This document shows positions 7,745-34,127 of a DNA stretch of 40,573 nucleotides, piece after piece (within the stretch, counting starts at the first letter, position 1; each line of letters opens with the position of its first letter). The translations under genes were made by a program, and so were the position numbers. Source of the DNA: Phycisphaerae bacterium (lineage in GTDB: Bacteria; Planctomycetota; Phycisphaerae; Sedimentisphaerales; Anaerohalosphaeraceae); contig JAGPMT010000028.1 of NCBI GenBank assembly GCA_018052735.1, forward strand, positions 1 to 40,573, written 5' to 3'. The notes beneath the pieces are model-generated. The model saw only the letters and a program-made list of their open reading frames with translations. It was not told where the DNA came from and ran no database searches.

Positions 7745-9136
7745 ATGAACAAACATGCACTGATAGCACCTATAATAACAGGATTGATCCTGACAATGGC
7801 TGTGTACCATTGGGTCAATGCTTTTAGGAGCTTTCAGGTTCCGCCGCGTCTGGCCGGTCAGGACGGCAGACCTCAGCGCGATCAGACACAAACGCAAACC
7901 GCCCAAATTGAAGGCACGCTGCAGCGCTTCGACGGCAGTGCCTCTGCTTTGCAGGCAAGCTGGCCGCAGTTTCGCGGCCCCAGCCGCAGCGGAATTATCC
8001 ATTCCGATGTTCCTCTGGCGCGTCAATGGCCTGCTCAGGGCCTCCCCAAACTCTGGGAGATTCAATTGGGCGACGGATACGCCGCTCCTGTGGTGCACAA
8101 CGGTTGTGTATATCTGGTGGATTATGATTTGCAGGCCGAAGCAGATGCTATCCGATGCTTTTCGCTGGACGACGGCAGAGAAATCTGGCGGTACAGCTAT
8201 CCGGTTAAAATAAAACGCAATCACGGGATGAGCCGTACTATACCTGCGGTAACAGACCGTTATCTGGTGGCCATGGGACCCAAATGTCATGTTACCTGTT
8301 TGGATGCTGTCAGCGGTCAATTTCGCTGGATGATTGATTTGGTCCGCGAATTTGGCGCCACAGAGCCGCTTTGGTATGCCGGCCAATGTCCGCTGATTGC
8401 GGATGGCAAAGCTATTCTGGCTCCTGCCGGGCCGGATGTTCTGATGATGGCCGTCGATTGTCAAACCGGTCAAATTGTTTGGAAATGTCCCAATCCAAAC
8501 AAGTGGAAAATGACGCATACCTCTATTTTGCCGATGCAGTTTGAGGGTATGGATTTCTATGTCTATGCCGCCAGCGGGGGAGTAGCTGCTGCGGATGCCG
8601 CACAAGGAACCCTGCTGTGGCAGACAGATGCGTGGTTTCTGCGAACCAATGTACCGACCCCTGTCGATGCCGGCGGAGGGAAGATTTTCCTGTCTGCCGG
8701 CTACAATAAAGGCAGTTTAATGCTCCAGCTGGAACGGCAGGGGGAAAAACTTATCCCCAAAGTCCTGTTTACGCGTCCGCCGGAAATTTTCGGCTCAGAC
8801 CAGCAGACTCCTATCTTTTATAAGGGGTATATTTACGGTGTCCGTCCGGACAAACAATTCGTTTGTTTGGATACAGAGGGTAATATTGTCTGGACAAGCG
8901 GTTCAGAGAACCGGTATGGTTTAGGGCCGTATATCATCGCAAACGATATGATTTATCTATTGAATGATGATGGAGTTTTGTCGCTGATTGAAGCATCCAG
9001 CGAGAAGTTTAATCTTTTATCGCAGACACGAGTGCTCAGCGGCCACGAGTCCTGGGGGCCGATGGCATTGGCGGCAGGGCGCCTGCTGGTGCGGGATTTG
9101 ACAACGCTTGTTTGTCTGGATGTCGCGGCAAAATGA
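7745..9136 (+). CDS. Membrane-anchored PQQ-like beta-propeller protein
   Basis: A 463-residue protein with an N-terminal hydrophobic anchor (about residues 7-26) and a beta-propeller of the PQQ/BamB-like superfamily. The propeller opens with SWPQFRGPSRSGI, and blades end in repeats such as CFSLDDGREIWRY, CLDAVSGQFRWMI and VDCQTGQIVWKC, the D-x-x-x-G-x-x-x-W pattern typical of this fold. It has no CxxCH haem site, so it is not a quinohaemoprotein dehydrogenase; the name refers to fold only. It follows the FtsX-type permease by 24 bases. The anchor would place the propeller on the periplasmic face. Two related propeller proteins occur at 12334 and 18030, suggesting a shared role in the downstream redox locus, perhaps as scaffold or electron/cofactor-binding component. 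Confidence 0.85.
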   Translation: MNKHALIAPIITGLILTMAVYHWVNAFRSFQVPPRLAGQDGRPQRDQTQTQTAQIEGTLQRFDGSASALQASWPQFRGPSRSGIIHSDVPLARQWPAQGLPKLWEIQLGDGYAAPVVHNGCVYLVDYDLQAEADAIRCFSLDDGREIWRYSYPVKIKRNHGMSRTIPAVTDRYLVAMGPKCHVTCLDAVSGQFRWMIDLVREFGATEPLWYAGQCPLIADGKAILAPAGPDVLMMAVDCQTGQIVWKCPNPNKWKMTHTSILPMQFEGMDFYVYAASGGVAAADAAQGTLLWQTDAWFLRTNVPTPVDAGGGKIFLSAGYNKGSLMLQLERQGEKLIPKVLFTRPPEIFGSDQQTPIFYKGYIYGVRPDKQFVCLDTEGNIVWTSGSENRYGLGPYIIANDMIYLLNDDGVLSLIEASSEKFNLLSQTRVLSGHESWGPMALAAGRLLVRDLTTLVCLDVAAK

Positions 9137-9142
9137 CGCGGC

Positions 9143-9171
9143 TTGTATTGAACAGCAAAATCCATTATACT
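9143..9171 (+). promoter_or_regulatory. Candidate sigma-70-type promoter of the redox locus
   Basis: TTGTAT (9143-9148) and TATACT (9166-9171) are separated by 17 bases in the 69-base gap before the NHL gene. The -10 box matches 5 of 6 consensus positions and the -35 box only about half. It would start a transcript 25-30 bases before the TTG start at 9206. Planctomycete promoters are poorly defined, so this is suggestive only. Confidence 0.4.
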
Positions 9172-9205
9172 CCTGTAAGTTTTCATAGCTGTAGGGTTGC
9201 TTTAG

Positions 9206-10234
9206 TTGATAAAACAGACAAATAAAATCTATTCTGCGGTCATTGTTGGGCTGGTTCTTGCAGCTGCGGCAGCGGCAGGCCTGATTGCATTTTTTTTGTT
9301 TGATGCTTCCGGTTCCCAGATAAAGCCTGCCCCGGAGTATTCATATAATATCGAACAATATGCAAAAATAGATCCGGAACTGATTTTATACCGTCAGACC
9401 GGCGACACGCTCCAGCTGCGATTTGAGAAATGTTCTGCCATTGCTGTTGATGCCGTCCGGCGGATGTACATTGCCGGCGATCAAAAAATAGCGGTTTATG
9501 ATGCCCAGCATTCCATCCAGAGGGAAATCGAGCTGAAGGATGAACCAACCTGCCTCCACATTGACTTTGACGGCGGCTTGATAGCGGGTTTGAAAAATCA
9601 TCTGGTATTTTTAGATACAGAGGGTCAAACACGGAACCAGTGGCCGGCGCCGGCTGAAAATGCGCTCCTGACCTCTATTGCAGCCGATAGGGACAACATA
9701 TTTGCCGCCGATGCAGTCAACAAGCTTGTCTGGCGGTTCAGCCGCACCGGAGAGGTTCAAAACCAGATTGGCCGCAAAGATGCAGCAGCCAATATCCCCG
9801 GTATTGTTGTTCCAAGTCCCTATTTTGACATAGCGGCCTATCCAGACGGTCTGCTCCGTGTAGTCAATCCCGGCCGGCATTGGATTGAGGCCTATACTGC
9901 TGATGGACACCGCCAATGGTATTGGGGCAGGGCCGGTGTGGATATCGAGGGCTTCAGCGGCTGCTGCAATCCGGTGGCGCTGGCTGTGCTGCCGGACGGA
10001 GGATTTGTAACCTGTGAAAAAGGATTGGTTCGTGTTAAAGTGTACAGCGCCGAGGGTCAGTTTATCGGCGTGGCGGCCGGGCCCGAGCAGCTGGGTTGGT
10101 CAGAGCCCCTGCGGATTTGCACAACAGCGGAAGAATGCAAATCCAAAGGATTTGATGTCGCTGTTGATTCCGACGGCCGTATTTATGTGCTCAATACCGT
10201 AAATAATACAGTCAAGATATTTGAAAAGAAATGA
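9206..10234 (+). CDS. NHL-repeat / six-bladed beta-propeller protein, membrane anchored
   Basis: A 342-residue protein with an N-terminal transmembrane anchor (about residues 9-32) and an NHL-type propeller. Blade-like repeats include AVDAVRRMYIAGDQKIAVYD, ADRDNIFAADAVNKLVWRF and the last blade AVDSDGRIYVLNTVNNTVKI. The segment FSGCCNPVALAVLPDGGFVT followed by EKGLVRVKVYSAEG has a striking C-C pair that I believe recurs in planctomycete NHL proteins. The start is TTG at 9206, with AGGG about 10 bases upstream and no ATG available before the anchor. Its TGA overlaps the ATG of the next gene (ATGA at 10231). Likely periplasmic face; NHL domains are usually protein-interaction platforms, so a docking role in the redox complex is plausible but not shown. 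Confidence 0.82.
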   Translation: MIKQTNKIYSAVIVGLVLAAAAAAGLIAFFLFDASGSQIKPAPEYSYNIEQYAKIDPELILYRQTGDTLQLRFEKCSAIAVDAVRRMYIAGDQKIAVYDAQHSIQREIELKDEPTCLHIDFDGGLIAGLKNHLVFLDTEGQTRNQWPAPAENALLTSIAADRDNIFAADAVNKLVWRFSRTGEVQNQIGRKDAAANIPGIVVPSPYFDIAAYPDGLLRVVNPGRHWIEAYTADGHRQWYWGRAGVDIEGFSGCCNPVALAVLPDGGFVTCEKGLVRVKVYSAEGQFIGVAAGPEQLGWSEPLRICTTAEECKSKGFDVAVDSDGRIYVLNTVNNTVKIFEKK

Positions 10235-10482
10235 ATAACAAACACACAGGACAGACTACGCGACGGCGTCTGGCTCTGGATGCCCTGCGATGGGCGATGA
10301 CATCCGGGTTTGGACTGCTGTCGCTGCGGCTGACGCGGCGGGAGTCCGGCATACAGGAACATCCCTGCATCGATGTCAAGGGGCTGACCGGATGCCGCAA
10401 TTGTCCCGTTTGGGATGCCTGCCGTCTTCCGCGGGCGCTGTCGGTTAAACAGTTTATTAACAATGACAAACAGAAATCCTGA
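10231..10482 (+). CDS. Small four-cysteine protein with Tat-like N-terminus
   Basis: An 83-residue protein of unknown function. The ATG at 10231 overlaps the NHL gene stop (ATGA) and its 3' end overlaps the next ferredoxin gene by 20 bases, so it is embedded in the operon and very likely real. Residues 10-33 (TTRRRLALDALRWAM and on) look like a twin-arginine signal or a short amphipathic anchor. The C-terminal half has four cysteines spaced C-x8-C-x2-C-x5-C (residues 46-64), followed by LPRALSVKQF. The spacing suits an Fe-S cluster or a metal site. I do not recognise a named family. Its position suggests it is an accessory or electron-carrying subunit of the redox system. Confidence 0.72.
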   Translation: MNNKHTGQTTRRRLALDALRWAMTSGFGLLSLRLTRRESGIQEHPCIDVKGLTGCRNCPVWDACRLPRALSVKQFINNDKQKS

Positions 10483-11029
10483 CAAGCTGTATCGGCGCAC
10501 TTTTTTGCGTGAAGGACTCTGGACTGCTGTGCTGACATCTCTGGCAGCGGCGGCAGCGGCTCTTTTTGCCAAATCACGCAGATCCCCCGCAATGGTCTGG
10601 CAGATTGATCCGTTGAAATGCATTGCCTGCGGCCGCTGTGCAACCCACTGCGTTCTCAATGAGTCTGCTGTCAAATGCGTCCACGCATATGCAATGTGCG
10701 GCTACTGCGATTTATGCACCGGCTATTTTGTTCCCGAACCCAAAGAATTGTCCACCGCCGCCGAAAATCAGTTATGCCCAACAGGGGCTATCCGGCGGAC
10801 TTATGTGGAAGATCCTTATTTTGAATATACGATAGATGAGTCCTTGTGCATCGGCTGCGGCAAATGCGTCAAGGGCTGCGGCGCTTTCGGCAATGGTTCG
10901 CTGTTTCTGCAGGTCCGCCATGACCGTTGTCTGAACTGCAACGAGTGTGCGATTGCAGCAGCCTGTCCTTCGCAGGCCTTCAAGCGGGTACCTGTGGAAA
11001 ATCCCTATCTATTGAAGGATCAGCTATGA
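10463..11029 (+). CDS. Tat-exported four-cluster [4Fe-4S] ferredoxin (NrfC/HybA-like)
   Basis: A 188-residue electron-transfer protein. The N-terminus YRRTFLREGLW followed by an Ala/Leu-rich stretch is a twin-arginine signal, implying export of the folded Fe-S protein or anchoring by an uncleaved helix. Seventeen cysteines form four ferredoxin-type motifs: C53-x2-C56-x2-C59-x3-C63; C72, C79, C82, C85 with C105-P (LCPTGAI); C129-x2-C132-x2-C135-x3-C139; and C156-x2-C159-x2-C162-x5-C168-P. This order resembles NrfC/HybA/DmsB-type subunits, which relay electrons between a membrane protein and a periplasmic enzyme. I chose the ATG at 10463; an in-frame GTG-type start at 10415 would add 16 non-homologous residues. 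Its stop overlaps the next gene's ATG at 11026, so it probably partners the NapH-like protein. Confidence 0.9.
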   Translation: MTNRNPDKLYRRTFLREGLWTAVLTSLAAAAAALFAKSRRSPAMVWQIDPLKCIACGRCATHCVLNESAVKCVHAYAMCGYCDLCTGYFVPEPKELSTAAENQLCPTGAIRRTYVEDPYFEYTIDESLCIGCGKCVKGCGAFGNGSLFLQVRHDRCLNCNECAIAAACPSQAFKRVPVENPYLLKDQL

Positions 11030-12324
11030 GCCGAATACCATCTGTGCTTTGGATTCTGCTATGGTTGGTTGTCGCTGCGCCGGCGCTGTCAGTGCAGCGG
11101 TTTCCCCCTCCGGAATTTGAGAATGAGTATGTAATCCCCTCTCCGACAACACCCATGCCCCGCTCTGAAATATATCAGGCGGCGGATGTTGTTGTATTGA
11201 CCGCGGCTCTGCTGGCGGCCTCTTGGCTGGTTCTCAAAAAACGCTCCCGACGAGCCATTGTCCTGCTGATGCTGGCATCTCTGGCCTACTTCGGCTTCTG
11301 GCGGAAGGGCTGCATCTGTCCGATTGGTGCTATCGGAAATATATCGCTGGCGCTGTTCAATTCAGACTTTGCCATTCCGTGGACGACGGCGGCATTTTTC
11401 TTTCTGCCGCTGGTCTTTGCGCTGTTTTTCGGCCGCGTTTTCTGCGGGGCCGTCTGTCCGCTGGGCGCACTGCAGGACATCGTGCTGCTGCGTCCGATAC
11501 AGATTCCTCTCTGGCTGGAGACTCCGCTGCGCCTGCTGGCATGGCTGTATCTGTTGATGGCGATTCTGTATGCCGCCGCAGGCAGCGCGTTTCTCATTTG
11601 CCGCTATGACCCATTTGTAGCGTTCTTTCGATTCAGCGCCAATCCGGCGATGTGGGTCATCAGCTTTGCAATGCTGGCGATGGCAGTCTTTATCCCCCGG
11701 CCGTACTGCCGCTTTTTATGTCCGTATGGCGTCATTCTGCGTCAGTTGGCGCGGTTTTCAAAATTATCCGTAACGATTACGCCGGACGAATGCATCCATT
11801 GCCGTCTATGTGAAAATGCCTGCCCTTTCGGTGCCATCGATAAGCCCACGGTCGAGTGGCCGCAGACGGAACGCTCCAAAGGCCGCCGTCGGCTGCTGCT
11901 GCTTATGGCCTTGCTGCCGGTTCTGACGGCCGCAGGCGCGGCCTTGGGCTATGCCCTGCATTCGAAAATGGCAATGAGTCATCCGGTTGTGCGGCTGGCC
12001 TATCTGACAGGCCTTGAGCAGAAGGGTCTTCTCAAAGAGCTGCCGGAGGAAATAAAAGCATTCCATGCCGCCGGACAGAGCAGTGAGGTACTCTGCCGGC
12101 AGGCCGATGCAAAACAAAGACAGTTTGCCGTCGGCGGTGCCTTGGCGGGCGGCGGGATGGGATTGATTGCCGGCGGCATGCTGATTGCCGGCAGTATTTT
12201 TTGGAAACGGACCGATTATCAGGCCAACCGCGGCAGCTGCTTGGCCTGCGGGCGGTGTTTTAACAGCTGCCCGCGTCATCGGCTGCGGCTGAAGAGAAAT
12301 CAGCAACCGGAAAAAAACGGATGA
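11026..12324 (+). CDS. NapH/NosR-like membrane polyferredoxin
   Basis: A 432-residue integral membrane Fe-S protein. An N-terminal hydrophobic segment (3-22) is followed by helices around 50-70, 78-92, 122-138, 168-190 and 210-225. Three C-x1/3-C-P motifs typical of NapH/NosR/RdxA proteins follow membrane segments (C96/C98-P, C140/C144-P, C228/C232-P). A classical [4Fe-4S] motif C256-x2-C259-x2-C262-x3-C266-P comes next, and after two more helices a second one, C405-x2-C408-x2-C411-x3-C415-P. NapH family members pass electrons across or along the membrane to periplasmic reductases. There is no FMN-binding domain as in NosR. ATG overlaps the preceding ferredoxin stop (ATGA). Predicted role: transmembrane link between cytoplasmic NADH oxidation and the exported ferredoxin. 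Confidence 0.9.
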   Translation: MSRIPSVLWILLWLVVAAPALSVQRFPPPEFENEYVIPSPTTPMPRSEIYQAADVVVLTAALLAASWLVLKKRSRRAIVLLMLASLAYFGFWRKGCICPIGAIGNISLALFNSDFAIPWTTAAFFFLPLVFALFFGRVFCGAVCPLGALQDIVLLRPIQIPLWLETPLRLLAWLYLLMAILYAAAGSAFLICRYDPFVAFFRFSANPAMWVISFAMLAMAVFIPRPYCRFLCPYGVILRQLARFSKLSVTITPDECIHCRLCENACPFGAIDKPTVEWPQTERSKGRRRLLLLMALLPVLTAAGAALGYALHSKMAMSHPVVRLAYLTGLEQKGLLKELPEEIKAFHAAGQSSEVLCRQADAKQRQFAVGGALAGGGMGLIAGGMLIAGSIFWKRTDYQANRGSCLACGRCFNSCPRHRLRLKRNQQPEKNG

Positions 12325-12333
12325 TAAGACAGT

Positions 12334-14085
12334 ATGGAAGCCCAACGGATTAGTCAACGGTACAGCAGCGCAGTTTTTCAGTCGGCTGTCGGGGTGGCGA
12401 TTGTAGCCGGCGTATTCTGTCTGATTATTGCCGGCATGATGGCTGTTCAGGCATATCATATGAAAACAGCCGATCCAGCCCGCGCAGCGGAATTGGAAGC
12501 AATGAAAGTCCAAGCCCGTCAATACCCTGCAGATGAAGCGCTCGCCCGCTCTATTCTTCAGCTTGATACGCAGATTCGGCGCGACCAGTTTGCACGTCTT
12601 TATTTCCTCCAGCGGGGAATGGTGCTGCTGGCAGCGGCGGCAGCCGTGTGTGTGGGTGCTGTTCTGGGGGCCGGTGCCTATCGTCCCCGCACTCCTGTCT
12701 TAAAGCCGCAGGGTGATTTAAAAATGCTTCAGATTCGGCAAGCTGTCCGCATTCGCACGGCTCTGACCATTACGCTGATAGTGATGGGAGCCGCTGGGCT
12801 GTTCTGGATGTTTTCGACTCCCGCCGCTGACATACTCTCTTCCGGCGGGCGTGCTGAAATCCCGGATGATTCAAGCCCTGTCGAATCCCAAACGGCATCA
12901 ATGGAGGAAATGCTAGCCCATTGGCCGACATTTCGCGGCCCTGAAGGACTGGGCATCTGCCGCTTCGAAAATATTCCCGAACAATGGGACGGCCCAACAG
13001 AAAAGAATATTCTTTGGAAAGCGGCTGTGCCGCTGCCCGGCCATAACTCCCCGATCGTCTGGGGCAATCATGTCTATTTGACCGGTGCCACAAAAGAGCG
13101 CCAGCAGATTTTCTGTTTTGATGCCCGCAGCGGCCAATTGCTGTGGGCGGGCGATGTGTCGATTCCTCCCTCGCTGCAGCGGGATGAAATGGACATTATG
13201 GAAGAGACCGGCTATGCGGCCAGCACAGCTGTAACAGACGGCAGGCGGGTGTGTGCCATTTTTGCCGGCGGGGATATGGGCTGTTTTTCAGCGGACGGCA
13301 GACGGTTGTGGGAAAAGCATCTGGGAGTTCCGGAAAGTGCCTATGGCTACGCCGCTTCGCTGACGGCGTTTGAAAATCTTGTTATTGTTCAATGGGATGT
13401 GGGCTTTGAGCCCGGCGGCAGCAAACTGATGGCGCTGGATTGGCTGACGGGTAAAACGATATGGGAAACCGCCCGTCCCGTCCCCAATTCCTGGTCATCT
13501 CCCACCGCCGCACAGGTGGGCGGGCAATGGCGTCTCTTAACCGCCGGCTCTCCCTTTGTGATTGTGTACGATCCGAAAACGGGCGCCGAGCAGTTTCGGG
13601 CCGCCTGCATTGAAGGGGATATTGCGGTTACTCCTATTACCGCCGGCGGCAGAATCTTTGTTGTCGAACCCTACAATAAACTGGTTGCCCTTGATGCCCA
13701 GAACGTGCAGGATCAGGCAGCTGCGCCCATTCTTTGGCAGGCCGAGGCGTCCATGCCCGATATCTGCAGCCCGGTCACTGACGGCCACTATATTTGGACA
13801 CTGACAACCGAAGGCGGCCTGAACTGCTTTCGTGTTTCCGACGGCAGCAAGATATATTCTCAGCAGCTGAGCGGAAACTTTCTGTCCTCGCCGACGCTGG
13901 TTGGAGATGTGCTGTATCTGCTCAGCGAAAAGGGCACAATGATTCTGGCCCGGACTGGGCAGGACTATGCCGAAATCCGGCGCAATGAGATCGGCGAGAA
14001 GTGCTTTGCCAGTCCAGCCTTTGCACCGGGACGGATTTATATTCGAACGATGAACCATTTATTCTGTATTGGAAAGTCGGATTGA
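12334..14085 (+). CDS. Membrane protein with C-terminal PQQ-like beta-propeller
   Basis: A 583-residue protein. Three predicted helices (about residues 16-40, 93-112 and 145-163) precede a propeller that opens with HWPTFRGPEGLGI. Blade signatures include CFDARSGQLLWAG, ALDWLTGKTIWET and CFRVSDGSKIYSQ. The loop between helices 1 and 2 (about 41-90) is hydrophilic and charged. The related genes at 7745 and 18030 have only an anchor or a signal peptide, so the three-helix membrane domain is specific to this copy and may be the part that docks to the polyferredoxin. It starts 9 bases after the NapH-like gene. The stop TGA at 14083-14085 overlaps the TTG start of the NuoE-NuoF fusion, indicating translational coupling of a membrane propeller with a cytoplasmic NADH-oxidising subunit. 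Confidence 0.85.
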   Translation: MEAQRISQRYSSAVFQSAVGVAIVAGVFCLIIAGMMAVQAYHMKTADPARAAELEAMKVQARQYPADEALARSILQLDTQIRRDQFARLYFLQRGMVLLAAAAAVCVGAVLGAGAYRPRTPVLKPQGDLKMLQIRQAVRIRTALTITLIVMGAAGLFWMFSTPAADILSSGGRAEIPDDSSPVESQTASMEEMLAHWPTFRGPEGLGICRFENIPEQWDGPTEKNILWKAAVPLPGHNSPIVWGNHVYLTGATKERQQIFCFDARSGQLLWAGDVSIPPSLQRDEMDIMEETGYAASTAVTDGRRVCAIFAGGDMGCFSADGRRLWEKHLGVPESAYGYAASLTAFENLVIVQWDVGFEPGGSKLMALDWLTGKTIWETARPVPNSWSSPTAAQVGGQWRLLTAGSPFVIVYDPKTGAEQFRAACIEGDIAVTPITAGGRIFVVEPYNKLVALDAQNVQDQAAAPILWQAEASMPDICSPVTDGHYIWTLTTEGGLNCFRVSDGSKIYSQQLSGNFLSSPTLVGDVLYLLSEKGTMILARTGQDYAEIRRNEIGEKCFASPAFAPGRIYIRTMNHLFCIGKSD

Positions 14086-16430
14086 GCGAGATTGATCTCA
14101 CTATTGTAGATGCCTGTATCGAACGCATCGGCAGACAGCCTTGTTATGCGCTGCCGCTGCTGCAGGCTGTTCAGGAAGCATTCGGCTATCTGCCGGAGGA
14201 AGCCATCGAGCGGCTGTCGGAAAAAACCGACTGCACCGCTTCGACACTTTGGTCGGTGGCGACCTTCTACGACCAGTTCCGTCTCAAGCCGGCCGGCAGA
14301 TATTCCATTCGGGTCTGCGTGGGAACGGCCTGTCATGTAAAAGGCAGCGACCAGATTTATGAGGCCTTTCGGCGCTATTTGAAAATCGCCGAAGGCGAGG
14401 ATACCGATGCAGACCGTCTTTTTACAGTCGATCGGGTGGCCTGTCTGGGCTGCTGCACCTTAGCGCCGGCAGTGCAGATTGGCGAGGTTACATACGGACA
14501 TGTAACACAGGAAACGGTCGGGGCAGTTCTGACGGACTTTCTCGAACGGCAGAAGACAGCAAGCCGCCATCCTGACCGTCGAGTCGGTCACGATGTGCCC
14601 CCGGAAGGGGAAATACGCATTGGTCTGGGCTCCTGCTGTGTGGCGCGAGGCAGCGCCAAGCTGCTGGCTGCAATAAAGCAGGTGATGGAAGAAACGGCTA
14701 TTCGGGCAAGCATTAAGCATGTCGGCTGTGTGGGAATGTGCTACCAAACCCCGCTTCTGGAAATCGTTTCCCCTTCTGGCCAGTCAACCCTCTATGTTCG
14801 GGTCGAACCGGAAGATGCCAAGCCCATTTTGCTCAAGCATTTTCGGCCTTCCGGAAAACTGCGCTCCCTTGCCAACTGCATCTGTGATGCGGTGGATAGG
14901 ATTTTGACGGATTCCGTTGCTTTGCCGTTCGATCGTTATCCGGCGGATGTGCGCGAACCGGATATTTCCGATTTTTTAAGCCGTCAGAAACGGATTGCAA
15001 CCGAGCATTGCGGATCCCTCAGCCCGGTGGATATCGACGAATACAAGAGCCGAGGTGGCTTCCAAGCGTTCCAAAAAGCCCTGACAGATCTTTCACCCGA
15101 AGACATTATCGAACAGATTCATCAATCTGGTCTTCGCGGAAGAGGCGGGGCAGGCTATCCGACCCATTTGAAATGGACTGCCGTTCGTCTCGCAGAGGCC
15201 GAGCAGAAATTTATAGTCTGCAACGGCGACGAAGGCGACCCCGGCGCTTTTATGGACCGTATGCTTATGGAATCTTATCCTTTCCGGATTCTGGAAGGGA
15301 TGATGATTGCCGCTCGCGCTGTCGGGGCAAGCCGCGGATATTTGTATATCCGTGATGAATATCCCCTTGCTGTGGAGCGCATCAGCCGGGCGATTGAACA
15401 ATGCCATGCCCATGGCTATCTGGGCGAAGGAATCGCAGCAAGCGATTTCTCGCTTGAACTGAAGATTTACAAAGGAGCAGGGGCATTTGTCTGCGGCGAG
15501 GAAACAGCCCTGTTGAAAAGCATCGAAGGCAAGCGGCCTGCTCCGCATCTGAGGCCTCCCTATCCGGCCCGACAGGGATTATGGGGCTATCCGACCCTGA
15601 TCAATAACGTAGAGACCTATTCGCTGGTGCCTTGGATTATCAGGCAGGGAGCCGCGGCGTTTGCCCAGCTGGGCACTCCGCAAAGCAGGGGTACGAAGGT
15701 CTTTGCTTTAGCCGGCAAGATACGCCGCGGCGGCCTGATTGAGGTGCCGATGGGTATTACGATTCGACAGGTGGTTGAGGAAATCGGCGGCGGCATTGAA
15801 GGCGATAAAAAGCTCAAGGCCGTCCAGATTGGAGGTCCCTCCGGCGGTTGTGTGCCGGCTGAAATGGCGGATATTTCTATTGATTACGAATCCCTCCATG
15901 CGGCCGGGGCGATTATGGGATCCGGCGGTTTGGTGGTATTGGATGAAACTGACTGTATGGTCGATATTGCCCGGTATTTTCTGGAATTTACACAGCGCCA
16001 GTCCTGCGGGCGGTGCACATTCTGCCGTATAGGAACCAAGCGAATGCTCGAAATCCTCCAGCGTCTCTGCAGCGGGCAGGGAAAAGCCGATGATTTGGAT
16101 AAACTTCACCAGCTGGCCGTGATGGTTCAGAATACCAGCATTTGCGGTTTGGGCAAAACCGCACCCAATCCCGTATTGTCAACATTGAAGTATTTTCGCC
16201 GCGAATATGAAGCGCATCTCAACGGCGTCTGTCCGGCCGGAAAATGCCGCGGTCTGATTACCTATTCGATTAATGATAAGTGTATCGGCTGTACAATTTG
16301 TGCCCAGCGGTGTCCGGCAGATGCCATTGCGATGAAACCGTATGAGAAACACCAAATCGACCAAGCCAAATGCATCCGCTGCGGCACCTGCAAGTCGGTC
16401 TGTCCGGCGGATGCTGTCGAGGTCAAATAA
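14082..16430 (+). CDS. NuoE-NuoF-ferredoxin fusion, NADH-oxidising flavoprotein
   Basis: A 782-residue fusion of two complex I/hydrogenase diaphorase subunits. Residues 1-155 are NuoE-like with the [2Fe-2S] ligands C79, C84, C121 and C125. Residues about 170-245 are a second thioredoxin-like [2Fe-2S] domain (C185/C186, C216, C220), as in HndC/HydB. Residues 300-715 are NuoF: LRGRGGAGYP (FMN/NADH), NGDEGDPGAFMDR, GAGAFVCGEETALL, the SLBB region, and N3 cluster ligands C642, C645, C648 and C688. The C-terminus adds two [4Fe-4S] motifs (C734-C744, C764-C774). I chose TTG at 14082, forming TTGA with the upstream stop and preceded by GGAAAG; this gives a standard NuoE N-terminus. A start at 14001 would add 27 unrelated residues. 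Expected role: NADH oxidation in the cytoplasm, paired with the next gene. Confidence 0.92.
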   Translation: MSEIDLTIVDACIERIGRQPCYALPLLQAVQEAFGYLPEEAIERLSEKTDCTASTLWSVATFYDQFRLKPAGRYSIRVCVGTACHVKGSDQIYEAFRRYLKIAEGEDTDADRLFTVDRVACLGCCTLAPAVQIGEVTYGHVTQETVGAVLTDFLERQKTASRHPDRRVGHDVPPEGEIRIGLGSCCVARGSAKLLAAIKQVMEETAIRASIKHVGCVGMCYQTPLLEIVSPSGQSTLYVRVEPEDAKPILLKHFRPSGKLRSLANCICDAVDRILTDSVALPFDRYPADVREPDISDFLSRQKRIATEHCGSLSPVDIDEYKSRGGFQAFQKALTDLSPEDIIEQIHQSGLRGRGGAGYPTHLKWTAVRLAEAEQKFIVCNGDEGDPGAFMDRMLMESYPFRILEGMMIAARAVGASRGYLYIRDEYPLAVERISRAIEQCHAHGYLGEGIAASDFSLELKIYKGAGAFVCGEETALLKSIEGKRPAPHLRPPYPARQGLWGYPTLINNVETYSLVPWIIRQGAAAFAQLGTPQSRGTKVFALAGKIRRGGLIEVPMGITIRQVVEEIGGGIEGDKKLKAVQIGGPSGGCVPAEMADISIDYESLHAAGAIMGSGGLVVLDETDCMVDIARYFLEFTQRQSCGRCTFCRIGTKRMLEILQRLCSGQGKADDLDKLHQLAVMVQNTSICGLGKTAPNPVLSTLKYFRREYEAHLNGVCPAGKCRGLITYSINDKCIGCTICAQRCPADAIAMKPYEKHQIDQAKCIRCGTCKSVCPADAVEVK

Positions 16431-16436
16431 CAATTG

Positions 16437-18002
16437 ATGATTACATTAACCATTGACAATCAGACAGTTGAGGTTGCTGCTGGAGCGACCATTCTGGAAG
16501 CCGCCCGAAAACTTGGGATTCATATCCCTGTTCTGTGTTTTGCTGACGGCTGCAAACCCTCAACAAGCTGCATGGTCTGTGTTGTGCGCGTGGAAGGTTT
16601 TAAAACACTGGTTCCAGCCTGCGGCACTCGCGCTGCCCCTAATATGGTTGTTCATACGCAGTCCGAAGAGATTGCCAAAGCCCGTAAGGCCGCCATCGAA
16701 CTGCTGTTGAGCGACCACGTCGGCGATTGCGAGGGACCCTGCGAAATGGGCTGTCCGGCCGGTATGGATATCCCGAAAATGATCCGACAGATTGCTGCTG
16801 AGGATTGGCAGGGGGCGATTCGAACTGTCAAACAGGATATTCCGCTGCCGGCGATACTGGGTCGGATTTGCCCAGCCCCCTGCGAAAAAGTCTGCCGCAG
16901 GGCACAGGCCGATGAACCCGTGGCAATCTGCCTTCTGAAACGGTTTGTGGCGGATGTGGATTTAGATTCTTCCAATCCTTATATGCCGCACTGCACCCAA
17001 CCGACTGGCCGAAAGGCCGCTGTTATCGGTGCCGGTCCGGCCGGATTGTCCGCCGCTTATTACCTTAAACAGGCCGGCATTGATTGCGATGTCTATGACG
17101 AGCATGCACAGCCCGGCGGGGCACTTCGCTTTGCAGATATTGACAGAATGCGGCTGCCTTTGTCTGTAGTCGAGCGGGAAATCGGCCAATTGTTGAGCAT
17201 CGGAGTCCGTTTTATAGGCAATATCCGCGTTGGCAGGGACGTTTCCATAGATGAATTGAAAAGTCAATATGATGCTTTCCTGCTGGCCGTCGGCCCGAAA
17301 GATGCTGCACAGGCCGCTGCTGATTGGGGTATTGCTGTTATAGACGACAAAATACAGACAGATCGTCAGAAATACTCGACTTCTGTCAAAGGTATTTTTG
17401 CGGCCGGCGGCTGTACGGGTTCACGAAATCTCTGTATTCGGGCAGTGGCCGACGGCAAAAAGGCCGCTTATGCGATACAATCGTACCTGCTGGGATTAAA
17501 CGGTGTGCCTGTACGAACCTATTGCCATCGGATGGGAGTAGTCGAAAAAGAGCAATTACAGTTTTTTCTTAAACATGCCTCCGGTGCAGAACGTACACAA
17601 CCCCTGACTGTTAATAGCGGTTATTTGCCCCAGCAGGCCCGACAAGAAGCCCAAAGGTGCCTGCACTGCGATTGCCGAAAGGCTGACCAATGCGCCCTGC
17701 GGCAGCGGGCGACAGAATTGGCAGCGCGTCAGAAAAGCTGGGAAAGCCAGGAAGATTTAGTTGCCCGGATTGTAAAGGACAAAAATATCATCTTCGAGCC
17801 GGGCAAATGTATCAAATGCGGCCTGTGTGTGCAAACGGCAAAAAAGGAAGGCCAAAAGATTGGTTTGGCGTTTGAGGGACGAGGCTTTGAGATGAAAATT
17901 GCTGTGCCGCTTAATAAATCACTGGCAGACGGTTTGACACAGGCGGCGTTGAAATGTATTGAAATTTGTCCGACGGGAGCATTGGCTCCTGCGGCTCAAT
18001 GA
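16437..18002 (+). CDS. NuoG-like [2Fe-2S] / GltD-like flavoprotein fusion lacking the NAD(P)H domain
   Basis: About 521 residues. Residues 1-90 form a NuoG/HydA-type plant ferredoxin domain (ligands near C34, C45, C48 and C62). Next comes a GltD-type cysteine helical domain (DCEGPCEMGCPAGMDIP; GRICPAPCEKVC), then an FAD Rossmann motif VIGAGPAGLSAAYYL near 197. In GltD a full NADPH-binding Rossmann domain follows LATG; here LLAVG near 285 is followed within about 35 residues by TSVKGIFAAGGCTGS, so that domain is absent, and FAAGD reads FAAGG. A C-terminal single [4Fe-4S] motif (CIKCGLC with CIEICPTGAL) resembles the end of the NuoG/HydA N-terminal region. No H-cluster or molybdopterin domain follows. 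ATG at 16437 chosen; a TTG codon sits just before it. Likely accepts electrons from the NuoE-F fusion. Confidence 0.88.
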   Translation: MITLTIDNQTVEVAAGATILEAARKLGIHIPVLCFADGCKPSTSCMVCVVRVEGFKTLVPACGTRAAPNMVVHTQSEEIAKARKAAIELLLSDHVGDCEGPCEMGCPAGMDIPKMIRQIAAEDWQGAIRTVKQDIPLPAILGRICPAPCEKVCRRAQADEPVAICLLKRFVADVDLDSSNPYMPHCTQPTGRKAAVIGAGPAGLSAAYYLKQAGIDCDVYDEHAQPGGALRFADIDRMRLPLSVVEREIGQLLSIGVRFIGNIRVGRDVSIDELKSQYDAFLLAVGPKDAAQAAADWGIAVIDDKIQTDRQKYSTSVKGIFAAGGCTGSRNLCIRAVADGKKAAYAIQSYLLGLNGVPVRTYCHRMGVVEKEQLQFFLKHASGAERTQPLTVNSGYLPQQARQEAQRCLHCDCRKADQCALRQRATELAARQKSWESQEDLVARIVKDKNIIFEPGKCIKCGLCVQTAKKEGQKIGLAFEGRGFEMKIAVPLNKSLADGLTQAALKCIEICPTGALAPAAQ

Positions 18003-18029
18003 ATAAAACTTCTTTTTCGGGAGAACAAA

Positions 18030-20441
18030 ATGGCTGTTCGTTCATTCTGCAACGTATTAGTAGCAATTGCGGCACTTTTACTGTTGGGGGCTCATTCGTA
18101 CGGGAATGACTGGCCGCATTGGCGGGGGCCTGATTACGACGGCATCAGCAAAGAAACGCAATGGGATCCATCCGGTAAAGACAGCAAAATCCTCTGGGAG
18201 GCACAGGTAGGAATCGGTTTTTCCGCTGTGTCCGTGGCCAACGGCAAGGCCTATACAATCGGCAACATCAATAAGGAAACCGATGTTGTCTATTGTTTTG
18301 ATGCCGTTACCGGCAAGGAACTCTGGCGGCATGAATATCCTGAAAAACTGGGTGCAAAATACTATGAAGGCGGCACACACAGCACCCCGACCATCGAAAA
18401 CGGAAAAGTCTATACTGTCAGCAAATTCGGCAAAGTATTCTGTCTGGATGCCGATACCGGCGCCGTTGTCTGGCAAATCGAGCTTCCCTTCAAAACGCCC
18501 GAATGGGGTTTTGCAACCTCAGCGCTGATAGTCGGCGAAAAGCTGATTTTAAATGTCGGTTCTGCCGGTCTGGCCTTGGACAAGGCCACCGGCCGGATCA
18601 TCTGGAAAAGCGACAACAGCGAGCCCGGTTACGCCACACCCGTCCCGTATATGCACGATGGAATACCTGCTGTAGCGATATTCGGCAAAGATACCGTTAT
18701 GGGTATCCAGATTGCAGATGGAAAACAGCTCTGGTCTGCCCCGTGGAAAACCCAGTATGATGTGAACGCCTCTGATCCGATTATTGTCGGCAAAGAATGC
18801 TTCGTTACTTCCGGATACAATCGGGGGGCTGGTCTTATTGATTTTTCCCAAGCCCAGCCCAAAATGGTCTGGGAAAATAAAAATATGCGCTCCCAGTTGA
18901 GCGGGCCTGTTTTAATCGATGGATACCTGTACGGTATTGATGACAACCAGCTGGTTTGTCTGGATTGGAAAACCGGACAGAAGAAGTGGGCCTTTGCAGA
19001 TGTTAAAAAGGGCGCAGTCAGTGCTGCCGGCAGCACCCTAATTGTCATCGGCGAAAAGGGAATGCTCTATACAATCAAGGCCTCCCCTGAAAGCTGTCAG
19101 CCGATTGCGTCCGTTCCGGTGCTCAACGGCAAATGCTGGACAATGCCGGTTCTGGCCAACGGACGCCTCTATGTCCGTGATACAGGGGGGCATTTGGTCT
19201 GTGTGGATATGCAGGACAAAAACGCCCCGCTGGTTACGCCGGCGATTGTCCCTGCGGAAAATCCCCAGTGGCCGCAGTGGCAGGGGCCTAACCGCGATAA
19301 TCTCAGTTCCGAAACCGGCCTTCTCAAGCAATGGCCGGCCGAAGGCCCCAAGATGCTGTGGGCCGCTGAAGGCATCGGCGAGGGCTACTCCTCCCCGACC
19401 ATTGCCGAAGGCCGCATTTATATTACCGGAATGAAAGACAACGAAGGTTTTTTGACCTGTCTGGATATGGACGGCAAACAGCTCTGGACAGCCAATTACG
19501 GCCCCGAATGGCGCCGTGCCACACCGGGCGTACGCTGTACGCCCACAGTGGATAACGGCTGTGTCTATGTCATCAGCGGCACCGGTCAGGTTGGCTGCTT
19601 TGATGCCCAGTCCGGTCAGAAGCTCTGGCTGGTGGATGCCTTCGGCCAGCTCGAAGGACAATATGGTATGTGGGGCATTGCCGAATCCCCCCTCATTGTT
19701 GAAGATAAGGTCATTTTCATTGTCGGCGGCAAGAAAGCGATGGTGGCCGCCCTGAATAAAAAAGACGGTTCAACAGTCTGGACAGTCCCCTCCAACGGCA
19801 GCCGGAGTGCCTATTCTTCTCCCATCGCCTTCCAGTGGGGCGGCAAAACCATCATCGCCGGCATGACCGAAAGCGTTTTGTTCGGCCTCAACGCCGCCGA
19901 TGGAACTGTTCTCTGGACATTCCCGATTCAGGACTATGTCTCCAGAAATCAGAAAATCCATCCCAATACACCCTATTTCAAAGATGGGCTGATTTTCTAT
20001 ACCAGCGGGTATGATATGGGGGCCGTTCAGCTTCGAATTGCACCGGATGCCGCCAGCGTTGAAAAGGTCTGGACTAATCCTGAAATCGACTGCCACCACG
20101 GCGGCTTTGTTGTACTTGACGGATATATCTATACAAGCGACTGGCGCGGCAACGATAACGGCTATTGGCTCTGCGCGGACTGGAAAACCGGCAAAATCCT
20201 CTGGACGCATAAATGGCTCAACAAGGGCAGCTTGACCTTTGCCGACGGCTTGCTCTATTGTTATGCTGAAAAGGACGGGCAGGTCGGACTTGTCAAGCCG
20301 TCGCCGGAAGCGTTTAATTTAATCAGTGCGTTTCCGATTACAAAAGGCCAGAAAGAGCACTGGGCACATCCGGTCGTCTGCGGGAAAACACTTTACATCC
20401 GCCACGGCGATGTCTTGATGGCGTATGATATTGCGGCTTAA
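18030..20441 (+). CDS. Secreted double PQQ-like beta-propeller protein
   Basis: An 803-residue protein with a clear Sec signal peptide (residues 1-25, ending near SYG-ND). It holds two tandem PQQ/BamB-like propellers of about 390 residues. The first opens with DWPHWRGPDYDGIS and the second, near residue 410, with QWPQWQGPNRDNLS; both continue with a related L-W/A-E-x-G-I-G pattern, so the gene arose by internal duplication. Blade signatures include CFDAVTGKELWRHEYP, CLDADTGAVVWQIELP and CFDAQSGQKLWLVDAF. There is no CxxCH motif. It starts 27 bases after the flavoprotein gene with GGGAGAA as ribosome-binding site. Location should be periplasmic. It may be the exported component that interacts with the electron-transfer chain or a scaffold for it; no enzyme activity can be assigned. 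Confidence 0.88.
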   Translation: MAVRSFCNVLVAIAALLLLGAHSYGNDWPHWRGPDYDGISKETQWDPSGKDSKILWEAQVGIGFSAVSVANGKAYTIGNINKETDVVYCFDAVTGKELWRHEYPEKLGAKYYEGGTHSTPTIENGKVYTVSKFGKVFCLDADTGAVVWQIELPFKTPEWGFATSALIVGEKLILNVGSAGLALDKATGRIIWKSDNSEPGYATPVPYMHDGIPAVAIFGKDTVMGIQIADGKQLWSAPWKTQYDVNASDPIIVGKECFVTSGYNRGAGLIDFSQAQPKMVWENKNMRSQLSGPVLIDGYLYGIDDNQLVCLDWKTGQKKWAFADVKKGAVSAAGSTLIVIGEKGMLYTIKASPESCQPIASVPVLNGKCWTMPVLANGRLYVRDTGGHLVCVDMQDKNAPLVTPAIVPAENPQWPQWQGPNRDNLSSETGLLKQWPAEGPKMLWAAEGIGEGYSSPTIAEGRIYITGMKDNEGFLTCLDMDGKQLWTANYGPEWRRATPGVRCTPTVDNGCVYVISGTGQVGCFDAQSGQKLWLVDAFGQLEGQYGMWGIAESPLIVEDKVIFIVGGKKAMVAALNKKDGSTVWTVPSNGSRSAYSSPIAFQWGGKTIIAGMTESVLFGLNAADGTVLWTFPIQDYVSRNQKIHPNTPYFKDGLIFYTSGYDMGAVQLRIAPDAASVEKVWTNPEIDCHHGGFVVLDGYIYTSDWRGNDNGYWLCADWKTGKILWTHKWLNKGSLTFADGLLYCYAEKDGQVGLVKPSPEAFNLISAFPITKGQKEHWAHPVVCGKTLYIRHGDVLMAYDIAA

Positions 20442-20453
20442 AATCGGGATTGT

Positions 20454-21281
20454 ATGACGATTGTTCTGTGCAGGTGCAGAAACGCCGGATGGATTGCAGA
20501 AGATATCCTTCAATCGGCCTTGGAACTGCTTAAGCCGGCCGGTCGCCGTTTGGTCTGCGTGGATGACCTCTGTGCATTGGCCGCCGAACAAGATCCTTTA
20601 TTCCAGCAGTGGGCAGCCAAAGAAAATCTGGTCGTTGCGGCCTGTTTTGAGCGGGCTGTCAGGGCCCTGTTTGCCCATGCGGGTATCCGCGAGCAGCTAG
20701 TCGCCCGGTTTGTCAACCTGCGGGCAATTCAAACACCTCAGGAGGCAAAGGCAGCTGTCCGAAATGCTATCCCGGAGCAGGGCTGTCCGGATGCTCTTTC
20801 GGGTGAGCCGGTTGATATCCAAACAGCCCAGTCGGATTGGGTGCCGTGGTTTCCGGTCATCGACCGTCAGCGCTGCCGAAACTGCATGCAGTGCCTCAAT
20901 TTCTGCCTGTTTGGGGTGTACGGTCAGGTTGACCAGACGGTTCGGGTGCTCCGGCCGAAAAAATGCAAGACCGGCTGTCCTGCCTGTGCCCGTGTCTGCC
21001 CCTATGCGGCTATTATCTTTCCTAAATATGACAAAAGCCCCATCAACGGCGATGCAGTCGACCAGCAGCAATGGGAGCAGGCATCGGCCGCCTCCGCTGA
21101 ATCGTTCAAACACCGCCTGTCGGCCAATATTTACCAGTTCCTGAAAAACCGTGCCCAGAACAGTCCCGATTCTCTTTCTCCCGACCTGCGAAAGCTCAAA
21201 GACCAGTTCGACATTCCTGACAGCATCTTTAATCCGCCGCCTTCCCAGTCGGGTCCGCCTGAACGCAGCGAAAACGGCTGA
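20454..21281 (+). CDS. HdrA-like N-terminal domain / dicluster [4Fe-4S] protein
   Basis: A 275-residue protein, last gene of the redox locus, 12 bases after the double propeller. Residues 130-190 hold two [4Fe-4S] motifs: C141-x2-C144-x2-C147-x3-C151 and C171-x3-C175-x2-C178-x3-C182-P. The first 90 residues (VLCRCRNAGWIAEDIL; VCVDDLC; NLVVAACFERAVRALFAHAGI) follow the pattern of the N-terminal domain of heterodisulfide reductase HdrA (CHCG, a CS-containing loop, VVAACSPR-x-HE-x-F). I infer remote homology; an alignment is needed. The rest of HdrA, including its FAD domain, is absent. The C-terminal 85 residues are charged and low-complexity. Probably cytoplasmic (no signal), so a candidate electron carrier to or from the NuoE-F/GltD-like pair. 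Confidence 0.75.
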   Translation: MTIVLCRCRNAGWIAEDILQSALELLKPAGRRLVCVDDLCALAAEQDPLFQQWAAKENLVVAACFERAVRALFAHAGIREQLVARFVNLRAIQTPQEAKAAVRNAIPEQGCPDALSGEPVDIQTAQSDWVPWFPVIDRQRCRNCMQCLNFCLFGVYGQVDQTVRVLRPKKCKTGCPACARVCPYAAIIFPKYDKSPINGDAVDQQQWEQASAASAESFKHRLSANIYQFLKNRAQNSPDSLSPDLRKLKDQFDIPDSIFNPPPSQSGPPERSENG

Positions 21282-31505: not shown

Positions 31506-31946
31506 TGAATGGCGGCTGAATTTATCTAAACAGCAGGCATGCCGTAATTTGCCGGCGGTTAGCAGCCTATTAAAACGGCACAGCGGACAAAGGGGGCGAC
31601 TCTGTTCCAACTATCGCACGCAGTCAGGCGCGGTTATCAGACCTGTAAAAACTGCTTCTTGACAGGATTAACCGTTTGATAAACCAATGGGCTGCTGAAT
31701 CGATTCCTATTAAGCCAATTGTTGAAAGGGCAGTCATCGCACCGGTGTATCAGCTGAAAGATGCTCCAAAATCACTTTTGTGCAAAAAAAGAGATAAAAT
31801 TGCGCAAATTTGGGGCTTTGCACCATTTCCACTGTTCCCTGAAATCCCATTTTCTGCTATAATATATAATTTACGGGGGTAAATAGAGTGTGTGAAAATC
31901 TCCCGATTTGTTATTACTGCCAAGCGGATGCGGCGAGGGTGTTGAA
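31506..31946 (+). other. Intergenic regulatory region before the pectate lyase genes
   Basis: 441 bases without a credible gene. A TGCCGT/ACGGCA inverted repeat flanks a 30-base segment around 31542-31576. Two octamers TTGYGCAA lie at 31778-31785 and 31800-31807. A perfect TATAAT (31858-31863) in AT-rich DNA sits about 85 bases before the first lyase; no strong -35 accompanies it (TTCCCT at 31835 has about a 17-base spacing), which would suit an activated promoter. No terminator was seen for the GH43 gene. Confidence 0.45.
31778..31807 (+). promoter_or_regulatory. Candidate operator: paired TTGYGCAA palindromes
   Basis: TTGTGCAA (31778-31785) and TTGCGCAA (31800-31807) are 22 bases apart centre to centre, about two helical turns. 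They lie 50-80 bases upstream of the TATAAT at 31858. TTGCGCAA is a perfect palindrome and resembles the core of LacI-family operators. The regulator is not in the window. Confidence 0.4.
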
Positions 31947-34103
31947 ATGAATGCGGGTTTGTATTCCTTAATTGCGGCTGTCTTATTCTGCATGATGTCA
32001 GGGGGGGCTTGGGCGGTTCCAGCGTTTCCCGGCGCCCAAGGCTACGGCGCCGCGGCTTCCGGCGGACGGGGCGGAGAGGTTTATTTTGTTACCAATTTGA
32101 ACGATTCCGGCCCCGGCTCCCTGCGTGATGCTCTCAATCATAATACCCCGCGGACGATTATCTTTCGTGTTTCCGGAACAATTCATCTCCAATCGAATCT
32201 GGATATCAAATACCCCAATGTAACCATCGCCGGCCAGACAGCTCCGGGGCAGGGCATCTGCATTGCCAATGGTTCCTTATATTGCGGCTATGATAATGTG
32301 ATAATCCGCTATATCCGCTGCCGTCTGGGCGATCAATGGCCGGACGGCACTCCAAACGGCGATGATGATGCTGTGTGGGGCCGCGGCGGCAATCGGATTA
32401 TTCTCGACCACGTCTCGGCCAGCTGGTCTGTGGATGAAACATTCTCTTTTTATACCAACAGCAATTTTACTGCCCAGTGGTGTATGATAACGGAAAGTCT
32501 TCGGTATTCGCATCACGAAAAGGGGCCGCACGGCTACGGCGGCATCTGGGGCGGAACCAACAGCTCCTGGCATCACAATCTGCTGGCCCACCACAGCTCC
32601 CGCAATCCCCGCATTGAAGGCGATGTGGTCGAGAATGTAGATTTGCGCAACAATGTCATTTACAACTGGGGCTTTAACAGCTGCTACGGGGGCGAGAAAG
32701 CATCCGTCAACATTGTGAACTGCTATTATAAATACGGCCCTGCTACCGGCTCCGGTGTGCGATACCGAATTGCCAATCCCAGTCTTCAAAAAGATGCTTC
32801 GGGCGCAGCCGTCGTGCCGCACCGCTACGGGCAATGGTATATCAGCGGCAATTATGTCTATGGAAATGCGGCCGTAACCAATGACAATTGGCTGGGTGTA
32901 AATCCCGAAGGCGGCGATGCCGAACGGAGCTTGTGCAGGGCCCAGACGCCTTTTCCCGAAGCCCAAATCTATCCGGTAGCCACGCAATCCCCGCAGGAGG
33001 CCTTTGAATCGGTTCTGAATGAGGCCGGATGCAGTCTGTATCGCGATGCGGTGGATGCCCGCATTGTCAGCGAGGTCCGAAGCGGTACGGCTAGCGGCAG
33101 CGGCCAGACCGGAGAGGGGCTGGGCATTATTGATTCCCAAACGGCTGTCGGCGGCTGGCCGCCGCTGGAGACGCTGCCGGCGCCGCCGGACAGCGATAAC
33201 GACGGCATGTCCGACGGATGGGAACTGACGCACGGGCTCAATCCTGCCTATGCGGCAGACCGCAACGGCGACCGCGACGGCGACGGCTATACCAATCTCG
33301 AGGAATACCTCAACTGGCTGTGTACGCCGGCTGCACGGGCGGATTTAAACCGCAACTGTGTTATCGACCTCGGCGACTTTGCTGTTCTGGCGGCATCTTG
33401 GAAAACCCGCCCGGGGCAGGCCCTTTGGAATCCTTTCTGCGATATTGCCCGGCCGGCAAACGGCGTCGTGGATCTGTCGGACCTGCAGGTGCTGGCCGAA
33501 AACTGGTGCAACCAGCCGCAAGCCGCACAGCCGCTGACCAAAGTCAGCATCATCGCCCGTCAGGGAAAGGCTATCCAGTACAAAAATGATTCGGGAGCAT
33601 GGATTTCCGAAACCCGCCTTAAAACACGCACCTCCGGCCAGTGGGATCCGGATCCTCTGCTCAATACGCTGGATGCCAACAAATCGTATCTGCAGTTTGA
33701 TATCTCCGGCTTCGGCGGCACTATTGTTCAGGCGACGCTGACGATTTATGCCATCACCGATGCCAAATCCTACACTGTCAGCGGCCTGCTGGATGGTGTG
33801 GACGAAGCATGGCGGATGGACACAATAGACTGGTTTAACGCCCCGGGCAACGATACCCAGAGCGGCTCGGCCTTGAATCCGGCCCAGACTGTCTTGTTGT
33901 ACAGTGTCAATCCGACGGCAGCCGATACCGCCGCCAGCGGCGATGTAACGGCGTTTGTCTGTGCCGACACCGACGGACTGGTAACATTTATCCTGACCGC
34001 CGGCGGCACAACCTATCTGTATAATATGATCGAGGGGGCTTACTTCAACGCAGCGTATGTTCCCGTTTTAACCTTGGAGGGTATCCTGACGCCTGCGGGA
34101 TAG
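31947..34103 (+). CDS. Modular PL1 pectate lyase with calcium modules and CBM96/DNRLRE-like domain
   Basis: A 718-residue secreted enzyme. A Sec signal (cleaved after AWA, residue 23) precedes a right-handed beta-helix of polysaccharide lyase family 1: FPGAQGYGAAASGGRGG, VTNLNDSGPGSLRDAL, VTIAGQTAPGQGICI, IILDHVSASWSVDETF and the catalytic-arginine-like SSRNPRIEG. From about 414, DSDNDGMSDGWE and DRNGDRDGDGYTNLEEYLN are thrombospondin-3-like calcium repeats. At about 466-530, DLNRNCVIDLGDFAVLAASW and NGVVDLSDLQVLAENW form a dockerin-like pair. The last about 185 residues resemble a DNRLRE/CBM96 carbohydrate-binding module (SYLQFDISGFGGTIVQATLT). ATG 31947 has GAGGG 8 bases upstream; the frame extends back to 31908. 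It cleaves polygalacturonate by beta-elimination. Confidence 0.9.
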   Translation: MNAGLYSLIAAVLFCMMSGGAWAVPAFPGAQGYGAAASGGRGGEVYFVTNLNDSGPGSLRDALNHNTPRTIIFRVSGTIHLQSNLDIKYPNVTIAGQTAPGQGICIANGSLYCGYDNVIIRYIRCRLGDQWPDGTPNGDDDAVWGRGGNRIILDHVSASWSVDETFSFYTNSNFTAQWCMITESLRYSHHEKGPHGYGGIWGGTNSSWHHNLLAHHSSRNPRIEGDVVENVDLRNNVIYNWGFNSCYGGEKASVNIVNCYYKYGPATGSGVRYRIANPSLQKDASGAAVVPHRYGQWYISGNYVYGNAAVTNDNWLGVNPEGGDAERSLCRAQTPFPEAQIYPVATQSPQEAFESVLNEAGCSLYRDAVDARIVSEVRSGTASGSGQTGEGLGIIDSQTAVGGWPPLETLPAPPDSDNDGMSDGWELTHGLNPAYAADRNGDRDGDGYTNLEEYLNWLCTPAARADLNRNCVIDLGDFAVLAASWKTRPGQALWNPFCDIARPANGVVDLSDLQVLAENWCNQPQAAQPLTKVSIIARQGKAIQYKNDSGAWISETRLKTRTSGQWDPDPLLNTLDANKSYLQFDISGFGGTIVQATLTIYAITDAKSYTVSGLLDGVDEAWRMDTIDWFNAPGNDTQSGSALNPAQTVLLYSVNPTAADTAASGDVTAFVCADTDGLVTFILTAGGTTYLYNMIEGAYFNAAYVPVLTLEGILTPAG

Positions 34104-34109
34104 CCGGCC

Positions 34110-34127
34110 GCAGCAGAGGTCTGCTGC
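34110..34127 (+). other. Intercistronic hairpin
   Basis: GCAGCAG-AGGT-CTGCTGC forms a 7-bp stem with a 4-base loop between the first and second lyase genes. There is no T-run, so it is more likely an mRNA stability or processing element than a terminator. Confidence 0.4.

Follow-up and report, generated by a model that had tools for sequence, protein, structure and literature searches.

Bfu enzymes have a bifurcating core in common; what varies is the third substrate, which supplies subunit A. The family includes 17 clades without an assigned function, and the only role of subunit A is generally to link that substrate with the core (PMC9304861). The ligands of clusters B1 to B4, including a B2 His, mark a bifurcating BfuB; non-bifurcating homologues do not have the B2 His (PMC9304861). 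In StnC, the corresponding subunit of the Sporomusa ovata StnABC transhydrogenase (PDB 8oh5), the FAD belongs to the NADPH site and is not the flavin that bifurcates. Through the clusters, electrons from this FAD reach the FMN in the BfuBC core, and the cluster beside the FAD is held by three Cys residues and K170 (PMC10482914). We found no published description of a BfuA without the NADPH domain, or of a NapGH-linked Bfu enzyme, in the open-access literature.

The window is the whole stretch of DNA that was analysed, 40,573 nucleotides from a Phycisphaerae bacterium. It encodes a Bfu/StnC-type subunit A in which, as judged from alignments, one domain has been lost. The loss is real and conserved.

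Domain structure of the window protein

The protein (P0001) and its parts are as follows.

16437-18002, plus strand: BfuA/StnC-like subunit without the NADPH Rossmann domain, 521 amino acids (continuous open reading frame, P0001)
16437-16727, plus strand: N-terminal [2Fe-2S] domain with C34, C45, C48 and C62 (Pfam PF13510; ligands invariant, 90/90)
16716-17006, plus strand: GltD-type Fe-S domain (PF14691; ligand table; StnC K170, PMC10482914)
17007-17300, plus strand: N-terminal part of the FAD half-domain with GAGPAGL, PGG and LLAVG (Pfam and homologue alignment)
17295-17378, plus strand: joint, the site of the missing NADPH domain of about 137 residues (comparison with solved chains, alignment and motif positions)
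17379-17495, plus strand: C-terminal part of the FAD half-domain with TSVKGIFAAGG and RAVADGKKAA (Pfam and homologue alignment)
17649-17984, plus strand: C-terminal Fe-S domain with C408/C411/C413/C419 and C458/C461/C464/C511 (PF22117 just below cut-off; ligand table)

Pfam recognised Fer2_4, Fer4_20, Pyr_redox_2 as two fragments, and Fer4_Nqo3 below threshold. The closest NCBIfam model was PRK12814, which is 657 amino acids long and matched in two pieces. The GltD-type Fe-S domain carries the set H94/C98/C102/C153, invariant in the ligand table. A further set in it, C106/C145/C149/K168, corresponds to cluster C7 of StnC, the one next to the FAD. The C-terminal Fe-S domain has lost the second cluster of the NuoG-type dicluster. 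A sequence-only reading of the window had described NuoG-type Fe-S ends as added to a GltD-like protein. They are not additions but the ordinary StnC/PRK12814 layout.

The same reading had proposed that the NADPH domain was lost, and this was borne out. LLAVG occupies residues 282 to 286, TSVKG begins at 315 and FAAGG at 321. The spacing from LLAVG to TSVKG is 28 residues, where solved relatives have a full domain. Residue 288 of 9bov_A pairs with residue 288 of P0001, and 9bov_A is matched again only from 426 (against P0001 from 278), which leaves about 137 residues unmatched. Chains 8oh5_C and 9n5u_A, also among the nearest solved ones, likewise match in two stretches about 137 residues apart. 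What is absent is the second Rossmann domain: at this place the GGGN-A-D and RR motifs occur in L002, a GltD paralogue encoded by the window's own genome, and in intact relatives, L099 for example. Together with the spacing, these motifs indicate that the deletion in P0001 is real and spans one domain. A structure prediction of P0001 from a 7-row alignment had a mean pLDDT of 45, too low to count as evidence.

One alignment placed the NADPH motif GGGDTGSD of GltD proteins from viral contigs on FAAGGCTGSRN. Since the alignment of relatives that have the domain with those that lack it is consistent, we took this placement for an alignment error and trimmed the viral-contig GltD rows.

Gene cluster and BfuBC partner

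The neighbouring genes are as follows.

7745-9136, plus strand: BamB/PQQ_2 propeller with an N-terminal hydrophobic segment (profile matches, hydrophobic segment)
9206-10234, plus strand: NHL-repeat protein with an N-terminal hydrophobic segment (profile matches, hydrophobic segment)
10415-11029, plus strand: NapG-like ferredoxin with a Tat-type RRTFL signal (profile matches, signal motif)
11026-12324, plus strand: NapH-like polytopic Fe-S membrane protein with an extra C-terminal Fe-S motif (profile matches)
12334-14085, plus strand: membrane-anchored BamB-like propeller with three hydrophobic segments (profile matches, hydrophobic segments)
14001-16430, plus strand: NuoE-NuoF (BfuC-BfuB) fusion, EF (profile and structure-chain matches, ligand check)
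18030-20441, plus strand: double BamB/PQQ_2 propeller (profile match; downstream of A in many relatives)
20454-21281, plus strand: small Fe-S protein with a ferredoxin domain (adjoins A in 7 fetched loci only)

The genes of the plus-strand run from 7745 to 21281 overlap or lie close together; only the NapG gene is preceded by a longer gap, of 180 bases. The order NHL-NapG-NapH-BamB8-EF-A is widely conserved. The A gene starts 6 bases after EF. The NuoE-NuoF fusion had been named as the partner, and its position directly upstream and the conserved association support that. Its true start is probably near 14076-14082.

EF has a full-length match to 9bov_B and a strong match to 8oh5_B, both bifurcating subunits. 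The tested B1-B4 ligands are present, including the B2 His, which was found in 84/84 aligned rows; B2 has Thr at the position that varies between Thr and Cys. BfuC-type NuoE is fused at the N terminus of EF with all four [2Fe-2S] Cys residues. P0001 is the BfuA homologue with NuoG-type clusters. By its ligands and domains, EF carries the bifurcating BfuBC signature. Searches of the neighbouring cluster genes turned up no pyridine-nucleotide domain outside EF.

In fetched DNA, NapG/H genes accompany A at 53/69 domain-less, 3/3 FAD-eroded, 6/8 FAD-less and 0/4 Stn-type intact loci; some loci without NapG/H are on short contigs. L054 and L061 are among the few loci without NapH near A. L054 (G047, about 10500-16400) has EF-A with no NapGH nearby and lies beside NAD-linked NiFe hydrogenase-like genes on the opposite strand.

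Several further features of the window were seen. The NapH-like protein has its further Fe-S motif at residue 405, after an additional hydrophobic segment. The three BamB/PQQ_2-type propeller genes of the cluster (7745-9136, 12334-14085 and 18030-20441) are without CxxCH haem motifs. Three large open reading frames in 31908-37840 and 37849-39960 share a start like that of secreted polysaccharide lyases (FPGAxGxG), by eye. They are followed by a transporter-like open reading frame on the minus strand, also by eye.

Homologues of subunit A

Full-length homologues without the same domain (45-73% identity) occur across the genus, family and order, and others across the class and phylum. Proteins of about 500-590 amino acids with no room for an NADPH domain were common in the class, phylum and relatives searches. 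A scan of genome contigs returned only a Winogradskyella GltD. We found nothing in favour of a local deletion or assembly error. The reading frames of the domain-less homologues are open and full-length from genus to phylum, which excludes chance or assembly error; the probability left to it is negligible.

We extracted 90 A subunits and sorted them by domain scores and length. Six were intact, 4 had a degenerate NADPH domain, 69 (including the window protein) were without it, 3 were FAD-eroded and 8 were FAD-less. The homologue alignment that had been asked for thus showed the deletion to be conserved, with 69/90 proteins lacking the domain in the same way. By domain content the homologues form a graded series. 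It runs from intact proteins to a degenerate NADPH domain, to loss of that domain as in the window, to a decayed FAD half-domain and to none.

L099 and L106 have an intact NADPH domain and lie inside or beside a NapGH cluster. They are likely ancestral intermediates. L108-L111, L113, L114, L118 and L178 are BfuA-type proteins of 340-390 amino acids with no FAD domain, and most still adjoin EF and NapGH. They are possibly the smallest form of a BfuA-type subunit. L135 (G248), and also G367 and G587, seem to represent genomes in which a domain-less A gene is accompanied by a second, StnC-like one; in G248 the StnC-like gene is intact.

The window's genome also encodes a separate HydABC and Rnf complex subunit C. 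It contains two GltD paralogues elsewhere, which could in principle supply NADP(H) binding in trans, as could a protein of the cluster. This is highly improbable. The paralogues are unlinked to the cluster, and no pyridine-nucleotide domain turned up in its genes outside EF.

Iron-sulfur ligands, flavin site and selection

Sixteen ligands in four clusters were invariant in the 90 proteins but for one substitution in one protein; their assignment to clusters was inferred from StnC and from residues lost together. The sets are C34/C45/C48/C62, H94/C98/C102/C153, C408/C411/C413/C419 and C458/C461/C464/C511. In FAD-less L110, the otherwise invariant C464 is Phe, and one C-terminal cluster of that protein may be lost or altered. 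The FAD-proximal set C106/C145/C149 was complete in intact proteins, present in 66-67/69 domain-less proteins and often lost in FAD-eroded and FAD-less ones.

The flavin site has changed more. The FAD-site Arg (Arg239; R239 in StnC) is present in 6/6 intact proteins versus 13/69 domain-less ones. The FAAGD Asp is present in 6/6 versus 25/69. The Asp-to-Gly change noted earlier is real (Gly325). It was rejected as the key change and is not diagnostic: the position varies freely, and the 25 domain-less proteins that keep the Asp lack the domain all the same.

The fold motifs are kept. GxGxxG is present in 69/69 domain-less proteins, and the PGG motif is almost invariant. Pooled dN/dS over nine close pairs was 0.245 for the N-terminal FAD part, 0.116 for the C-terminal part and 0.134-0.184 for the Fe-S domains; some dS values were saturated, and the ratios are rough. 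The idea that the FAD half-domain is junk was rejected on GxGxxG and a dN/dS of 0.12-0.25. These values indicate that it is under purifying selection in the window's lineage.

The sequence-only reading favoured an FAD/Fe-S relay. Bound FAD would carry electrons between the FAD-proximal cluster and a partner docked at the former place of the NADPH domain. The fold motifs, the purifying selection and the retention of C106/C145/C149 agree with this. HdrA, an FAD protein tied to Fe-S partners, counts for it too. However, 11 homologues that keep the other four clusters intact have a decayed FAD half-domain (3) or none at all (8). The low counts of Arg239 and the FAAGD Asp also weigh against a relay, as do L100, L123 and L124, which drop the FAD-proximal ligands yet keep the FAD fold. 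A relay is possible for the window's lineage, is not the best-supported reading and seems to us rather unlikely. The alternative offered with it, a degenerate FAD site, came closer, although by GxGxxG and the dN/dS values the half-domain is not junk in the window's lineage.

A half-domain without FAD that only holds the Fe-S domains together would explain why the flavin-site Asp and Arg are often lost. It would also fit the loss of the whole half-domain in some lineages. It is hard to reconcile with the nearly invariant GxGxxG and PGG, and the C-terminal part, which contacts the flavin, has the lowest dN/dS of all. We regard such a flavin-free scaffold as improbable.

Evolutionary history

The history was read from a tree of the partner, EF, with A left out; the careful version had 38 rows. 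Intact proteins of the Stn type, which are not accompanied by NapGH, fall outside the group. Within it, the two intact Nap-linked proteins diverge first (98/94). The next branch holds two degenerate proteins and one deleted protein, followed by the rest, in which one further degenerate protein stands beside a deleted one. At least three changes are needed on this tree. A single loss of the NADPH domain, with all deleted proteins in one clade, was rejected (p-AU 2e-46). If lost domains are not regained, the tree implies that the NADPH domain was lost at least three times independently. A wider, quick tree also shows repeated loss. It places the intact Nap-linked pair inside the cluster and not at its base, so the number of losses is better established than the base of the tree. 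The NADPH domain was apparently lost once the enzyme had become attached to a membrane Fe-S module.

Proposed function

P0001 is probably a BfuA-type subunit of a Bfu-family bifurcating (or confurcating) enzyme with a StnC-like NADP(H)-linked ancestor. NADP(H) would no longer be an electron source or sink. The claim that this is not an NADPH enzyme is very probably right, given the conserved domain loss and the NuoEF association. Electrons would be exchanged between the membrane NapH/NapG-like proteins and the BfuBC core, where NAD(H) acts at FMN and ferredoxin at B3/B4. Their route through subunit A would be the [2Fe-2S] and three [4Fe-4S] clusters. The FAD half-domain would be a folded, possibly flavinated remnant that helps structurally and lies off the obligatory electron path. 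GxGxxG in 69/69, C106/C145/C149 in 66-67/69 and the FAD-part dN/dS of 0.12-0.25 count against this last step, and a working flavin is possible.

With the NADPH site gone, the four clusters kept and NapG/NapH adjoining, the membrane module is most simply read as the present third partner. The A-NapGH link is inferred from gene neighbourhood, and the few loci with no NapH near A count against this reading. The final partner would more likely be a periplasmic carrier than menaquinone. In the genome, which is 96% complete, two menaquinone marker families were searched: MqnA/MqnD gave no match, and MenD matched only below cut-off. A quinone partner therefore appears unlikely in the window's organism.

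We propose tentatively, as a possible extension, a membrane-tethered, quinone-independent Bfu subtype. Its BfuA would have swapped its substrate site for a NapG/NapH-like module. Electrons from NADH and ferredoxin would be carried over the membrane to acceptors associated with the propellers in the periplasm, or would flow in the opposite direction. Repeated erosion of the NADPH and FAD domains would have followed.

The lineage would show how a substrate site is discarded. With a membrane partner present, the nucleotide domain decays and is lost at least three times, the flavin domain is sometimes lost, and the four clusters are kept. The invariant clusters would identify the minimal electron path in subunit A and predict a membrane-linked Bfu subtype in anaerobic bacteria. 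Such genes should not be annotated as NADPH-dependent glutamate synthase small subunits.

Comparison with known systems

StnC is among the closest described systems. It shares the [2Fe-2S] N terminus, the GltD Fe-S domain with HxxxCxxxCxxxCP and a Lys ligand, the FAD half-domain, the CxxCxC motif, NuoG-type Fe-S and a NuoE/NuoF (BfuBC) core as partner. The StnC motifs (PMC7483475) appear in P0001 as H94-C98-C102-C106-P, C408-C411-C413-C419 and the C7 Lys ligand K168. Three parts of StnC are missing from the window protein: the NADPH Rossmann domain, the FdhF-like domain at the C terminus and one C-terminal cluster. A further difference is the linkage of the window gene to NapG/NapH genes and propeller genes.

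Nfn-Bfu subunit A (PDB 9n5u, NfnA; Thermococcus sibiricus, PMC9304861) is an A subunit of the same kind; cluster A4 is missing from the T. sibiricus enzyme too. It differs in that its NADPH domain is retained, and NADPH use has been demonstrated for the T. sibiricus enzyme (PMC9304861). Stn and Nfn-Bfu enzymes have the NADP(H) Rossmann domain in the A (StnC) subunit; P0001 has none.

PRK12814 (NCBIfam NF009454) has the same domain order and no FdhF domain. Its 657 positions include the NADPH domain, and P0001 scores 440.7 against a cut-off of 916.

GltD/NfnB proteins share the Fe-S domain and the FAD half-domain. They differ as two-Rossmann flavoproteins with an NADPH site and no NuoG-type ends. 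A GltD has FAD and NADPH domains and GltB as partner; P0001 has no NADPH domain, and its neighbours are NuoEF and NapGH-like. The NuoG of complex I has membrane-arm subunits nearby, and no such genes were found among the neighbours examined.

Nuo-Bfu and other Type 3 Bfu enzymes (PMC9304861) differ from the window cluster, which has NapGH-like proteins and no complex-I membrane arm. They resemble it in having a BfuABC module joined to additional subunits, which bring in the third redox partner.
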